Assembly (NCBI GenBank): GCA_024280655.1
Contig: JAJRPR010000099.1
Coordinates: forward strand, 1-34,831
From: Alphaproteobacteria bacterium
GTDB lineage: Bacteria > Pseudomonadota > Alphaproteobacteria > Rhizobiales > Devosiaceae
Reading direction: 5' to 3'
Length of the DNA: 34,831 bases
This document shows positions 28,605 to 34,571 of this stretch, one piece after another (the first letter of the stretch is position 1; each line of letters starts with the position of its first letter). The translations under genes and the position numbers were made by a program. The notes under the pieces are model-generated. The model was given only the letters and a program-made list of their open reading frames with translations, had not been told where the DNA came from and searched no databases.

Positions 28605-29672
28605 TCATTTTGTATTTATTCTATATCGGGTTGCTCTAGCCTGTCCAAATCGTTCAATCTTGTTCATTTCGACTAATTTGCGCAGGGTATGATCTACTGT
28701 TCTTGGGTTAAGTCCTGTTGCTTTAACAACCTCAGAGCGATTAAAAGATTCAACTAAATTGGCATATTCCCAAACTTTTAATTGCAACTCTGATAAGAAT
28801 ACCTCTGTTGGCTCGTCTGTCATCAACTTCAAGGCTTGTTGACTTTGAGAAATTACTACTTTTAAGAAAAATAGAATCCAAGGTGATAAATCTTCATCAT
28901 CACTCTTCCAGCTTTGCTGTGTTTTATTCAAAGCAACGTAATAATCTGCTTTATGCTCTTCAATGATTTTCTCATGAGAAATAAAAGGAATAAAAGCATA
29001 ACCAGCTTTAAGCATTAAAAGGTTGGTCAATACCCGACTTAAACGCCCGTTACCATCTTGAAATGGATGAATTGCCAGAAACTCAAAAATAAAATTCCCT
29101 ATAATTAAAAGCGTTGGAAAATTATCTTTTGCTAATTCCTTCGTTGTCCAATCTAAAAGCTCTTGCATCTCTTTGGCTACAAGATGGGGTGGTGTTGGAT
29201 CAAAAATAACACCTACCAATTCACCAGCTTGATCTCTTGCTTCAACTCTGTTTGAGCCAAATTTATAAGTTCCTTTGTGTCTGATGTCTTTTTCAGAATA
29301 TTGTAAAATTTGTTGGTGAAGCCCTAATATTGAACTTTCAGTAAAAGGAATATCACTCCAATGCTCAAAAACTGTTTTTAAAACTTCCAAATATCCCCCA
29401 ACCTCTTGTTCATCACGTGTTTTAAATTTTGTGATGCGCTGTTTTTGGAAAAGCGCCTGAACATCTTTATCGCTTAGTTTACTTCCCTCAATACGTGTTG
29501 AAGCACCAGTTGAGGTTACTAACACCGAAGTTTGCAACCGTTGCGCCATCTGTGGCGATAGAGTATTTGCAATTCTCCAATGCCCCTTGATTGCATCAAT
29601 AGATGCAATTTGGCTATAAATTTTGGTAGCTAATTTAGCTGAAAATTGAAGTCGCTTTTCGAATCGTTGCAT
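28605..29672 (-). CDS. Fic family protein (putative AMPylase) with C-terminal winged helix
   Basis: HPFQDGNGRLSR active-site motif; N-terminal STRIEG inhibitory-type motif; C-terminal SEVVKATGLNPRTVDHTLRKLVEMNKIERFG. Confidence 0.92.
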   Translation of the reverse strand: MQRFEKRLQFSAKLATKIYSQIASIDAIKGHWRIANTLSPQMAQRLQTSVLVTSTGASTRIEGSKLSDKDVQALFQKQRITKFKTRDEQEVGGYLEVLKTVFEHWSDIPFTESSILGLHQQILQYSEKDIRHKGTYKFGSNRVEARDQAGELVGVIFDPTPPHLVAKEMQELLDWTTKELAKDNFPTLLIIGNFIFEFLAIHPFQDGNGRLSRVLTNLLMLKAGYAFIPFISHEKIIEEHKADYYVALNKTQQSWKSDDEDLSPWILFFLKVVISQSQQALKLMTDEPTEVFLSELQLKVWEYANLVESFNRSEVVKATGLNPRTVDHTLRKLVEMNKIERFGQARATRYRINTK

Positions 29673-29964: not shown

Positions 29965-31962
29965 ATGGACTTAAATTTATTTGGAATTCCTAGATTTAAT
30001 TTAGAGAATCGATCAATTCAAAGATTGCCAGCTAAAGCCTATTTAGCGATAGCGCTTCTATTAATTAAATATGATGGGTTTGTGCGCCGTGCAACTTTGG
30101 CAAGTTATTTATGGGAAGATCGTGATACAAATTTAGCTAATGCAAACCTAAGACAATTGCTGGCTGCAATACGCCGATTTGAAAAGCAAAATTCACTTGA
30201 AATCATTAAAGCAGATAGAAATAATATCTATTTAGCAAATTCTGTCGTATGTGATCTAGATGAATTTACCTCTATTAAAAAGCTGACCACTTCTGAGGGG
30301 TTAAAAAGATATGTAGCAAATTATCAAAGAGATTTCTTGCAAGGGTTAGAAGATAGTTCAGGAGACAATTTAAATAAATGGATTTTAATCCAGCGACAAA
30401 ATTTCTCTAATCAATTTTTGCAAATTGCATATAAAGGCGCTTTAAAGATTGGCGGCAAAGATGGAGAAATTGCTTTAGAAAGTTTGCTTTTATCACATCC
30501 ATATGATGAAAAATTGCTACAAACCCTTATTATATCTCTTACAAAAAATGGCGATTATATAAAAGCCAAAAGATGCTTTGATATGTTTGCAAAAAGATTA
30601 TCTCAAGACCTTAATGTAAATCCAACTAATAAAACAATAACATTGGTCGCTCGATTGCTCCCTGATTTAATTCCTGAGCTTCATAGAAAATATTCATTTC
30701 TTTCCAGAAGAAACACCAGCAACATTATATTTACTGGCTTTGAGAATAATCCTCTAAGAGAAGAAGCTAAAGTCAATAATAATCCGCTTCCTCGATTATT
30801 AATTCTACCCCCAACATCTGGAGCATCTGAACTGCCAACATATAGTCACAGACTGGTGGATTCTTTGATAGAAGATATAACCTTGTCATTATCTAGAATG
30901 AGTAATTTTGTTGTTCTTGCTCCACATACCGCAAAACAATTTGTAAAAATGGAGCATGTTCAAATGCAACCAACGCTCGATGTAGATTTTATTATATCAA
31001 CAAGGTTGATGCCAAATGGTAGCAATTTAAATCAAGAAGAAAAAAGATACATAATAAAATTAACCTCTGTTTCAAGCGGAGAGGTTTTGATAACAGAAGA
31101 GATTCGTTTAACGTCAATGGGTCTTTATGAAAGCTATTGTGATGTAATTCAATCATTAGTCAGTAGGATTGGATTAAAAATTGACTGGTCAGTTTTATCT
31201 GACTTTCGTAATACTGGTTTTGCCAATGCTTACATTTTCTATTTGATTGGGAAAGAGAAATTGAATATTGGTGATCTGCCAAATGTTCGTGCTGCACGCA
31301 AAGCATTTAAGCATGCCATAAAGCTAGCACCAGATTTTTATTTGGCTCAACAAATGCTAGCACGAACTTATCATCTTGAATGGTATCTTTTGGGGCGCCC
31401 CGAATGCGAATTACTTTTGAAAACAAAAAACATCGCAACCAGACTTATCAAAACAAACCCCTCTTTAGCAGGGGGTTATTGGGAATATGGAAATTCACAA
31501 TTGTATTTGGGAGATATAGGTAGTGCTTTAGAAATTACATCTGTCGCTATATCCTTAGCTCCGAACCATTCAGATATAATTGCACACAAAGCTGATATTC
31601 TTTGTCATCATGGCGAGCATAACATGGCTCTTAAACTAATAGGCAAAGCGCTAGAACTTAACCCACTACCACCAGATATTTATTATTGGACTGCGGCTGG
31701 CAGCAAATTTTTTCTTCGTGACTATAAAGGCTCTCTAAAAATAATATACAAAACAAAGCCTATTAGTCCTTTATGCTGGCGTTTAACGGCAGCTTGCTAT
31801 GCGATGCTTGGCAATAAAAGAGAATCAAAAAAATATAAAGAACTCTATCTGAACGAATATCCCGATTTTAGAGTAAGTGTATGGCCAAAAATGTTTTCAG
31901 CAAATAGTCAAAACGATATTGAGCATTATACGGAGGCCCTATATCTAGCAGGTTTTAACTAG
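29965..31962 (+). CDS. SARP/BTAD-type transcriptional regulator with TolB/FlgO-like middle region and TPR C-terminus
   Basis: MDLNLFGIPRFNLENRSIQRLPAKAYLAIALLLI..GFVRRATLASYLWEDRDTNLANANLRQLLAAIRR winged helix; BTAD helices; LLILPP...LVDSLIEDITLSLSRMSNFVVLAPHTA; TPR-like helices at the C-terminus. Confidence 0.85.
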   Translation: MDLNLFGIPRFNLENRSIQRLPAKAYLAIALLLIKYDGFVRRATLASYLWEDRDTNLANANLRQLLAAIRRFEKQNSLEIIKADRNNIYLANSVVCDLDEFTSIKKLTTSEGLKRYVANYQRDFLQGLEDSSGDNLNKWILIQRQNFSNQFLQIAYKGALKIGGKDGEIALESLLLSHPYDEKLLQTLIISLTKNGDYIKAKRCFDMFAKRLSQDLNVNPTNKTITLVARLLPDLIPELHRKYSFLSRRNTSNIIFTGFENNPLREEAKVNNNPLPRLLILPPTSGASELPTYSHRLVDSLIEDITLSLSRMSNFVVLAPHTAKQFVKMEHVQMQPTLDVDFIISTRLMPNGSNLNQEEKRYIIKLTSVSSGEVLITEEIRLTSMGLYESYCDVIQSLVSRIGLKIDWSVLSDFRNTGFANAYIFYLIGKEKLNIGDLPNVRAARKAFKHAIKLAPDFYLAQQMLARTYHLEWYLLGRPECELLLKTKNIATRLIKTNPSLAGGYWEYGNSQLYLGDIGSALEITSVAISLAPNHSDIIAHKADILCHHGEHNMALKLIGKALELNPLPPDIYYWTAAGSKFFLRDYKGSLKIIYKTKPISPLCWRLTAACYAMLGNKRESKKYKELYLNEYPDFRVSVWPKMFSANSQNDIEHYTEALYLAGFN

Positions 31963-32041
31963 GTAATGCTTACTAACCTCTACTACGGAAGCGTAGAAAT
32001 TCAAATTCCCATATTATTGCTATGGATAAAAGGAGGAAAAA

Positions 32042-32224
32042 ATGACAAGTATAATTAATTATGATCCACATAAAGGTGGTATTCAAATTCAAGATTCTGT
32101 CACAGGAAAAACTGAAAATATACAGGCCACTATGCTCAGAAAGATTGCTAAACGAAAAATGAAGTTCGCTATTAAAAGTAATCAACTGGCTGCTCATGTG
32201 TTGATTAAGCTCTCCACTACTTAA
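32042..32224 (+). CDS. Small cationic peptide, candidate RiPP precursor for the adjacent YcaO-TfuA
   Basis: 60 aa MTSIINYDPHKGGIQIQDSVTGKTENIQATMLRKIAKRKMKFAIKSNQLAAHVLIKLSTT. Perfect SD AGGAGG 5 nt before the ATG; immediately upstream of ycaO on the same strand; no Cys. Confidence 0.65.
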   Translation: MTSIINYDPHKGGIQIQDSVTGKTENIQATMLRKIAKRKMKFAIKSNQLAAHVLIKLSTT

Positions 32225-32294
32225 TTATGGGGATATTAAAAATAACACTCTACAAAATGAATATCACCCCTATTTTGAATTAGTAGGTGTTGCG

Positions 32295-33491
32295 GTGATG
32301 ACCAATAATACCATCTCCCAGTATCATGATAGGGTAATATCCCCAAATGAAACAATGCACCGAGTCAGTCAGTCATTTGAACAACTTGGAATAACACGAG
32401 TTGCTGATCAAACAGGGTTAGATAAAATTGGCATCCCTTGCTTTGCTGCCTTTAGACCCAATTCCAAGACCCTTGCCAATAGTCAAGGTAAGGGTCTTGA
32501 TCGAGATTCAGCAAAAGCTTCTGCTGTTATGGAGGCAGTAGAACATTCAATTGCAGAAAATCAATATATTCCAACACTGGTAGGAAATATTAAGGGATTG
32601 AGTGAGAGAGGTCAGACTTTAGTTGATATTCGTCACCTGTTGCCAATCGGAGAGATTATCCCTGATAATAAAAAGCTTAGATGGGTTAAAGGCTATAATT
32701 TGTTATCGCAAGATGCGGCTTTGATCCCATTTGATGCAGTAAATATAGATGGCAAAAAAACTGATTTAATAGGCATATGCAAATCCACAAACGGGCTTGC
32801 CTCAGGAAATTGTGAAGAAGAAGCAATTTTTCATGGTCTTTGTGAACTAATAGAGCGTGACGCAGGATCACTTTGGTCTTTGAAAAACAAAGAAATGCAA
32901 GCTCTAACAGCTATTGATCCCGCCACCTGGAAAGATAAAACAGTTGTAGAACTTTTTCAAAAAGTTGAAAATGCTGGATTGAGTATGAAATTATTTGACC
33001 ATACTAGCGATATTGGTATGCCATGCGTTATGGCTGTGATTGGTGAGATTGGCAAAGATGAATATCAACATTTTGACCTTGCAGCAGGTTATGGAGCTCA
33101 CCCAATCGCTTCTCGTGCTGCAATTCGTGCAATTACTGAGGCGGCGCAAACACGTATAACTTCAATTGCTGGATCTCGTGATGATATTGACCCAGATTCT
33201 TATAGTGAGATAGCAGCTCTTGAACATATAAAGTTGCTTGAAGTGAAAGCTACTCCTAATAGATCGATGTCAAAAGGAATGCCGCTTGGAACTTCATTAC
33301 CTGAGTTACTAAGTTATACAATGTTGGCTCTTAGAAAAGTTAGAATTGAAGATATTTTCGCTTTCCCACTCTGTGGGGATGAATTTGATTTCTCAGTAAT
33401 GAAGTTAGTAGTCCCACCTTTGGAAGATCGTGATGCAAACAGCAATTGGCGTCCGAATATAAGAGCATTAGAAGTGATGTTGGCGGCATGA
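32295..33491 (+). CDS. ycaO: YcaO-domain protein (ATP-dependent backbone cyclodehydratase/thioamidation-type)
   Basis: SQGKGLDRDSAKASAVMEAVEHS; STNGLASGNCEEEAIFHGLCELIERDA; ASRAAIRAITEAAQTRIT, the three YcaO ATP-binding signature segments. GTG at 32295 or ATG at 32298. Confidence 0.95.
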   Translation: MMTNNTISQYHDRVISPNETMHRVSQSFEQLGITRVADQTGLDKIGIPCFAAFRPNSKTLANSQGKGLDRDSAKASAVMEAVEHSIAENQYIPTLVGNIKGLSERGQTLVDIRHLLPIGEIIPDNKKLRWVKGYNLLSQDAALIPFDAVNIDGKKTDLIGICKSTNGLASGNCEEEAIFHGLCELIERDAGSLWSLKNKEMQALTAIDPATWKDKTVVELFQKVENAGLSMKLFDHTSDIGMPCVMAVIGEIGKDEYQHFDLAAGYGAHPIASRAAIRAITEAAQTRITSIAGSRDDIDPDSYSEIAALEHIKLLEVKATPNRSMSKGMPLGTSLPELLSYTMLALRKVRIEDIFAFPLCGDEFDFSVMKLVVPPLEDRDANSNWRPNIRALEVMLAA

Positions 33492-34222
33492 GGATATTAT
33501 TTGCAGGCCCAAGTATTTATGGTGCGAATATTGATTTAGGTTCAATTGAACTAAGACCGCCAGCAGCTCATGGTGATCTAGCACGAGCTGTTTTGGATGG
33601 AGCTAGTGCCATTGGGTTAATAGATGGAGTTTTTGAAGCTATAGCAGCTGTGTGGCATAAAGAAATATTATTTGCACTTCAACGTGGGGTTGCAGTAGCA
33701 GGTGCTGCATCAATGGGTGCGCTGCGTGCTTCTGAATGTGCTAAATTTGGTATGATTCCAATTGGTAAGATTGCCCATTCTTATCTTGATGGATCTCTAG
33801 ATGACGATGCAGCTGTTGCACTGATACATGGGCCAACTGAGTTAGGAAGCCCACCCTTTACTGATGCATTGGTAGATATAGAACACACGCTTTCTATTAT
33901 GCTAAATTCTGGTTGCATCAACACCAATGAAGCAAAAAAAATACTTGAAAATGCACGTAAAACATTTTTTAAAAAACGCACTATTGATTCAATAGTATCT
34001 GAACTACCCAATGCTGTTTATCTAAGACAGCAATATAAAAAATACTTCACTAGTCTAAAACAGGCGGATGCTCTTGAACTAATTGCGTATATCAAGCAAC
34101 TGTCTGAAAATAATATCGCATCACCATTATCATGGAAACTTGAGCAACCCCGCACTTGGACAAATGCGCTAAATAAGATTGCAAATAGAAAGCAGTTTGT
34201 TCAAAACGGCGAACAAGTATAG
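33488..34222 (+). CDS. tfuA: TfuA-like core domain protein
   Basis: MRILFAGPSIYGANIDLGSIELRPPAAHGDLARAVLDGASAIGLIDGVFEAIAAVWHKEILFALQRGVAVAGAASMGALRASE is the TfuA core signature. ATG overlaps the YcaO stop (ATGA); the ORF track start at 33446 is probably too early. Confidence 0.93.
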   Translation: MRILFAGPSIYGANIDLGSIELRPPAAHGDLARAVLDGASAIGLIDGVFEAIAAVWHKEILFALQRGVAVAGAASMGALRASECAKFGMIPIGKIAHSYLDGSLDDDAAVALIHGPTELGSPPFTDALVDIEHTLSIMLNSGCINTNEAKKILENARKTFFKKRTIDSIVSELPNAVYLRQQYKKYFTSLKQADALELIAYIKQLSENNIASPLSWKLEQPRTWTNALNKIANRKQFVQNGEQV

Positions 34223-34310: not shown

Positions 34311-34571
34311 ATGTCACAAAATTATGTATCTATTACTATTCCAACAGACTTGCGTATGTTTGCAGTTCAAGGATTAAATAATCTAACGCCTAGAGAAACT
34401 GAAATACTTCAAAATGTCGTTAATAACAAAACTTCTAAAGAAATTGCACGTAAGCTAGGTATTAGCTATCGCACAGTAGAAGCGCATAAATCTAATATGT
34501 TACTCAAAATGGGTTTGCATAGCACATTAGATATTTATCGAGTGCTTTATGTTTTATCCAATGAGGATTGA
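34311..34571 (+). CDS. Stand-alone LuxR/GerE-type helix-turn-helix regulator
   Basis: 86 aa, NNLTPRETEILQNVVNNKTSKEIARKLGISYRTVEAHKSNMLLKMGLHS. No receiver or ligand domain. RBS agggggaaata. Confidence 0.92.
   Translation: MSQNYVSITIPTDLRMFAVQGLNNLTPRETEILQNVVNNKTSKEIARKLGISYRTVEAHKSNMLLKMGLHSTLDIYRVLYVLSNED

Follow-up and report, generated by a model that had tools for sequence, protein, structure and literature searches.

The name TfuA stems from work on trifolitoxin. The protein is a hallmark of backbone thioamidation, in which a Ser-Lys pair of TfuA frees sulfide from thiocarboxylated ThiS while YcaO uses ATP to activate the amide (PMC13185837, citing Liu et al. 2021). Besides its own products, a 2026 preprint names only thioviridamide-like compounds, thiovarsolins, thiopeptides and chimeric lanthipeptides as characterized YcaO-TfuA RiPPs (PMC13174530). 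For thiovarsolin B, a thioamidated tripeptide, varA, varY and varT suffice; precursors of the thiovarsolin family range from non-repeating forms to forms with up to five repeats, and trimming by host peptidases has been proposed (PMC6511847). According to a 2021 survey, all TfuA-YcaO products known at that time were actinobacterial and most predicted clusters proteobacterial, and antiSMASH and RiPPER predicted more than 500 TfuA-related clusters in Rhizobium, including automatically called small ORFs (PMC8120280). A literature search, with subscription papers mostly outside its reach, returned no paper on BTAD-controlled multicore precursors or on a product of these clusters.

The window analyzed here is the whole stretch of 34,831 nucleotides. 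It is an entire contig and ends 260 bp past a LuxR-type gene, the last of five genes that lie on one strand in the order SARP-like BTAD/TPR regulator, peptide, YcaO, TfuA and LuxR-type HTH protein. The cassette has the following features.

29965..31962, + strand: SARP-like regulator that opens the cassette, with a BTAD domain and TPR repeats (Pfam BTAD and several TPR families)
32031..32036, + strand: Shine-Dalgarno sequence AGGAGG with a 5-nt spacer to the ATG (direct reading of the sequence)
32042..32224, + strand: predicted precursor peptide gene, 60 aa, single-core (same-place orthologues at loci L077 and L076; rank 1 with a leader profile)
32042..32125, + strand: predicted leader (residues 1-28) with short beta strands, three in number, and the motif VxIxD..TGK.E.I (three-way alignment; AF2)
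32126..32176, + strand: putative basic linker, residues 29-45 (ATMLRKIAKRKMKFAIK), with a K/R run
32177..32221, + strand: candidate core, residues 46-60 (SNQLAAHVLIKLSTT), with an AAH motif at 32189-32197
32295..33491, + strand: YcaO, ATP-dependent amide-activating enzyme of the TfuA-associated type (PF02624, 1.2e-59)
33488..34222, + strand: TfuA, sulfide-delivering partner, with a 4-nt overlap with ycaO (PF07812, 134.9 bits)
34311..34571, + strand: stand-alone LuxR-type HTH regulator, final gene of the cassette (PF00196, 2.7e-19)

The BTAD domain of the regulator scored 22.9 bits in Pfam (cut-off 22.1) and 25.4 bits when the N-terminal part was searched alone. As in other YcaO-TfuA clusters, ycaO and tfuA are adjacent and score above the PF02624 and PF07812 cut-offs, and a small candidate precursor gene conserved with the pair lies next to them. 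The nearest solved structure to the window YcaO is MJ1094 (6pe3, E=9.5e-30), and the enzyme scores 205 bits against TIGR03266, the McrA-glycine thioamidation family, under its cut-off of 365. The NGLASGN...E..ERD motif is present, and the C-terminal PxPxP, a feature of azoline-type YcaOs, is absent. TfuA matches structure 6xp8 (E=7.6e-26) with conserved ASMGALRASE and GK motifs. No protease, exporter or RRE protein is conserved in the cassette, which also encodes neither a cyclodehydratase partner (E1-like/ocin-ThiF) nor a dehydrogenase. The 93%-complete draft of the window genome has one gene of the ThiS family and only this YcaO, and McrA is absent from it.

A Fic-domain gene (28605-29672, - strand) lies directly upstream of the cassette. 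At L077, the related locus in genome G134, the region downstream of the cassette has two fragments of a related gene, with a HipA-like toxin-type gene (417 aa) among the genes between them, and these surroundings look like a site of turnover. The GC content of the window falls from ~46% at 3-15 kb, where polysaccharide genes lie, to ~36% from 21 kb to the end, cassette included. Self-acetylation by an acetyltransferase-like frame at the contig end was considered and rejected, the frame being unconserved and without Pfam support. A terminator or attenuator between the peptide and ycaO found no clear support: a short hairpin there is unremarkable (z=-1.1), and promoter and terminator scans gave no excess over shuffles. 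A long, somewhat stable fold of 131 nt extends from the peptide end to over the ycaO start (32215-32345, -33 kcal/mol, z -2.8, 2/200 shuffles). As modeled, this fold would bury the ycaO start and might control the precursor-to-enzyme ratio.

A sequence-only reading of this stretch had singled out the small ORF for its optimal Shine-Dalgarno sequence, and our re-examination confirmed its coordinates, its sequence, the absence of Cys and the AGGAGG 5 nt before the ATG. The ORF has 60 codons with an ATG start and zero Cys, and the two remaining forward frames across it are stop-rich. Four AGGAGG and start pairs with 4-9 nt spacing occur in the whole 34.8-kb window, and a frame of more than 25 aa follows from that of the peptide ORF only. 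The same reading had named beforehand a lack of homologues beside other ycaO genes as grounds for its refutation. We looked for such homologues and found them beside ycaO in G134 (L077, same genus, 44% identity) and in G007 (L076, same family, 35% identity). YcaO and TfuA of G134 are 71% and 74% identical to those of the window; the precursor thus diverges faster than both enzymes, in keeping with a RiPP precursor. With the window peptide kept out of the leader profile, the window ORF ranked first among 507 window ORFs (E=6.4e-6), and when the same-genus L077 was left out as well the ORF still ranked first, at a non-significant E=0.14. Codon-position identities between the window and L077 (0.58/0.60/0.52) are too weak alone as proof of coding. 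Pfam and NCBIfam gave no match to the peptide, a PHROGs search gave a single match below significance (E=0.035) and plasmid tblastn merely one chance-level haloarchaeal match.

Among the window genome and 13 relatives from genera g1-g4, TfuA and the peptide are found together in the window genome, G134 and G007 only, and the 11 genomes that lack TfuA also lack the peptide. The peptide's own family was seen in three draft genomes only. TfuA itself occurs in 25/136 of the genomes sampled at family level, in 44/298 at order level and in 21/385 at class level. In G007, an in-frame TAG interrupts the C-terminal half of tfuA (L076:8101-8802, G007:C218), with both ycaO and the peptide intact; this is either recent decay or an assembly error.

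We fetched about 80 YcaO-TfuA loci, 55 of which have a BTAD/TPR regulator upstream of ycaO. The gap between these two genes holds an ORF of at least 30 aa with a Shine-Dalgarno sequence and an ATG in 47/55 cases, compared with 5/55 when the antisense strand is read and 98/1100 when the gaps are shuffled (~9%). The remaining 8/55 gaps contain candidate frames with TTG starts or weaker Shine-Dalgarno sequences, some of them leader-like. Many gap ORFs share the leader MAKxxxLGxxGxxGxWLVDLxxGTV, followed by a variable C-terminus. A profile of this type-A leader (MAKxxxLG... type), built without the window clade, gave no significant match to the window or L077 and E=0.29 for L076. The arrangement of the window is that of the BTAD-peptide-YcaO-TfuA cassette, with a BTAD/TPR regulator upstream, a candidate precursor in the gap and a YcaO that falls in the BTAD-associated clade. 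The same BTAD-peptide-YcaO order is found on pSK03 of R. leguminosarum BIHB 1148 (L119), on pTH2a of Rhizobium sp. TH2 (L118) and on S. meliloti pSymB, with an annotated TfuA in the first two. Given the homologues beside ycaO-tfuA and the 47/55 gap census, the sequence-only reading was very probably right to call the peptide a precursor, and we consider the case strong that ORF 32042-32224 supplies the neighboring YcaO-TfuA pair with its precursor.

The BTAD/TPR regulators are annotated as 'peptide antibiotic resistance protein' at L119 (NZ_CP022567.1, R. leguminosarum) and as 'adenylate cyclase' at L120 (CP090106.1, S. meliloti pSymB); both names look misleading. Candidate precursors of other kinds were also seen. 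L103, L105, L111 and L113, which form one YcaO clade, have candidates of 31-63 aa that end in LP(A/P)[LM]PRIPSRKFF(R/K)x and do not have the usual leader. A third precursor type, unrelated in sequence, occurs at the BTAD-YcaO-TfuA loci L074, L080 and L083 (43-47 aa, ending in HAL[KR]FR). At L052, L066 and L059 the candidates reach 211-224 aa, with another leader, long internal AGVQSQ or QQAQQG arrays and, after these, a segment conserved at the C-terminus (ALKELFG / ALRQLIG ... VLSD).

A maximum-likelihood tree was built from the YcaOs of 73 loci. In it the window groups with G134 and G007 (support 100/96) within a clade of nine loci (95/92), and these nine are exactly the loci with a LuxR gene downstream of tfuA. 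The BTAD-associated clade of 51 rows has a support of 97/98. Seven precursor types mapped onto the tree with six changes, which is the minimum (shuffled mean 27.1, 0/200 as low). The precursor thus moves and changes along with YcaO, as a substrate would with its enzyme, with the caveat that close relatives inherit both genes by descent and that clustering alone is no proof of interaction. The ORF, the co-directional gene order, the conserved placement and the co-inheritance of precursor type with YcaO are what we observe at these loci.

The peptide carries a net charge of -1 in its first 28 residues and of +8 in the rest, and the leader/core boundary at about residue 28 had been well guessed from this polarity. 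AF2 models of two distant precursors, both of low confidence, place the leader strands at nearly coinciding positions within residues 3-28 (3-8, 13-18 and 24-28 in one, 4-9, 15-19 and 24-27 in the other). Because pLDDT is just 66 and 60, we used these strands merely as a hint. In the alignment of the three closest leaders (window, L077 and L076), I16, D18, T21, G22, K23 and E25 are invariant. The K/R run of the putative linker is retained solely in these three (window KRK, L077 GKRKEKF, L076 AKKRFHV). Further downstream, A50, A51 and H52 are invariant in all three peptides. The L076 peptide joins a window-type leader to two AAH copies, VAAHVLYR and IAAHVLYR, and L099, which branches beside the window clade, has PAAHTM. 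By the leader profile, the window peptide matches the leader motif of the LuxR clade at E=6.4e-6 with the same-genus member included and at E=0.14 without it; of the core, the three closest peptides have only AAH in common.

Tandem-array C-termini are present in about nine loci (L081, L073, L056, L060, L058, L064, L065, L052 and L066), for example (TRSDAAAHILYGAD)x8. The repeats read (TRS[DE]xAAHILYGAD)x8 at L081, with a DNA period of 42 nt x6.5, (TRSDAASHIFYGVDRAVAAD)x5-6 at L073, with a DNA period of 60 nt x5.3, (RSDAASHHYFPNRG)x8 at L056 and (RS[DE]AASHYYYPS)x5 at L060, and at these four loci A(A/S)H cores stand in tandem. A conserved leader followed by tandem copies is the signature of a multicore RiPP precursor. 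The window peptide has no tandem repeat; it is linked to the tandem cores by synteny and the YcaO tree, without similarity of core sequence. A profile of 15 tandem-core repeat units (L073, L081, L056, L060) did not recover the window ORF, which ranked 86/507, and we do not claim core homology to these A(A/S)H repeats, which are a feature of one sub-clade. Since this profile misses the window ORF, our assignment of the core to AAH rests on the L076 bridge and on synteny. AAH occurs in 2.3% of random 60-aa segments and was chosen after viewing the alignment. Because the motif is short and was picked in this way, we hold with moderate confidence, at about an even chance, that the window core is centered on the AAH of SNQLAAHVLIKLSTT.

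Taken together, we consider it likely that the ORF encodes a precursor with a single core, from which a RiPP with a backbone thioamide is made by a minimal thiovarsolin-like logic. We propose the same minimal logic as for thiovarsolin because the cassette has no conserved protease, exporter or RRE protein. From the cassette we infer co-transcription, modification, site, processing, export and function of the peptide along the following lines. Both regulators, the SARP-like BTAD/TPR one and the LuxR-type one, would switch on a five-gene operon. The N-terminal ~28 residues would serve as the leader and bring the remainder of the peptide to YcaO and TfuA; as no RRE protein is encoded, the two enzymes would recognize the leader themselves. 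YcaO would use ATP to phosphorylate a backbone amide, TfuA would deliver sulfide from a ThiS/MoaD-type carrier, and a thioamide would form in or next to the AAH of SNQLAAHVLIKLSTT. As has been suggested for thiovarsolin, trimming might be left to host peptidases. With TfuA next to YcaO and no partner that cyclizes Ser/Thr, backbone thioamidation is our best guess. On the same grounds we agree with the earlier suggestion of thioamidation, whereas for the Ser/Thr-derived oxazolines suggested alongside it the cassette offers neither a cyclodehydratase partner nor a dehydrogenase or an RRE protein. The absence of Cys did not hold up as a clue either: the L077 orthologue has a Cys beside AAH, and the L112 peptide has two.

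The ORF could be a precursor from which YcaO-TfuA makes an azoline, amidine or macroamidine, or for which enzymes encoded elsewhere finish another scaffold. YcaOs are known for several amide activations, and we found no chemical test of alphaproteobacterial TfuA clusters in the literature. We nevertheless consider this unlikely: TfuA is tied to sulfide delivery, the cassette has no E1-like/ocin-ThiF cyclodehydratase partner, dehydrogenase or RRE, the cores are often poor in Cys, Ser and Thr (RSDAASHIFYG, AAHVLYR), and the best YcaO match is of the McrA-thioamidation type. It is less probable still that the small protein is an operon regulator or chaperone that binds DNA, RNA or YcaO while the enzymes act on another target. 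The basic residues would suit such a role, modification of the peptide is itself deduced, and some YcaOs modify the folded protein uL16, a possibility raised for others without a precursor gene (PMC13063428). Yet the tandem C-terminal segments of the relatives fit a substrate and not a regulator, and net charge past residue 28 ranges from -13 to +8 across related precursors. Furthermore, TfuA is missing from the neighborhood of uL16-type YcaOs (PMC13063428). The window YcaO lies next to TfuA and reaches 29.8 bits in the uL16 family NF040716, where the cut-off is 700, so that we rejected it as a uL16-thioamidating enzyme of the E. coli type. McrA, as another target, is absent from the 93%-complete draft.

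The sequence-only reading had also seen a basic amphipathic, membrane-active tail. A membrane-active antimicrobial peptide with a cationic amphipathic core would agree with the net charge of +8 past residue 28 and with an AF2 helix at 29-59, but the helix is of low confidence, 1278/5000 shuffles had an equal or larger helical moment, the charge is not conserved among relatives, and their repeated segments are neutral or acidic, aromatic and short. This idea is therefore not supported, and we regard it as very improbable. That the gap between the two genes is open here just by chance is hardly credible: the uninformative codon-position identity and the lack of Pfam/NCBIfam matches would allow it, but the Shine-Dalgarno sequence is optimal, presence, position and leader motif are kept in two relatives, and 47/55 BTAD-ycaO gaps hold such an ORF against 9% in the controls.

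With the ORF read as a thioamidation precursor, the cassette names the precursor of each cluster, and the tandem repeats of the relatives mark the core. The cassette also predicts a minimal three-gene set and raises the question of how YcaO-TfuA recognizes a leader without an RRE. Tentatively, and at somewhat less than an even chance, the Hyphomicrobiales cassettes may make thioamidated peptides of an undescribed class, very short and possibly multicopy (e.g. AAHVL / ASHIFY / ASHYYY), under SARP-like control. Such a class would need no RRE, dedicated protease or exporter, and its leader, folded into beta strands, would be recognized by YcaO/TfuA directly; its products would perhaps be intracellular or signaling peptides of soil and nodule bacteria, with the window peptide as a single-core form.

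Among described systems, the archaeal McrA-glycine YcaO-TfuA pair (MJ1094, 6pe3; TfuA 6xp8) is the closest characterized pair by sequence, but its substrate McrA is absent from the window genome and the window scores lie under the equivalog cut-offs. Trifolitoxin and azol(in)e peptides are rhizobial RiPPs as well; lacking a cyclodehydratase partner and dehydrogenase in the cassette and Cys in the peptide, the window locus does not belong to the azol(in)e RiPPs (LAPs). Global mining covered Rhizobium, Agrobacterium and other Proteobacteria; a word search of that paper's text gave neither repeated cores nor SARP/BTAD regulators, and no product is reported there (PMC8120280). The thiovarsolin cluster is actinobacterial and, unlike the window cassette, includes a heme oxygenase-like dehydrogenase and other genes (PMC6511847); a BTAD/TPR or LuxR cassette is not reported in the accessible part of that paper. 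The thiovarsolin core is APR/GPR, compared with AAH in the window peptide, and as neither APR nor GPR occurs in the latter, the likeness is an analogy of mechanism only. That analogy is plain in the gene content: in the thiovarsolin cluster of Streptomyces varsoviensis, as in the window, the precursor is encoded with YcaO and TfuA and no dedicated protease (PMC6511847).
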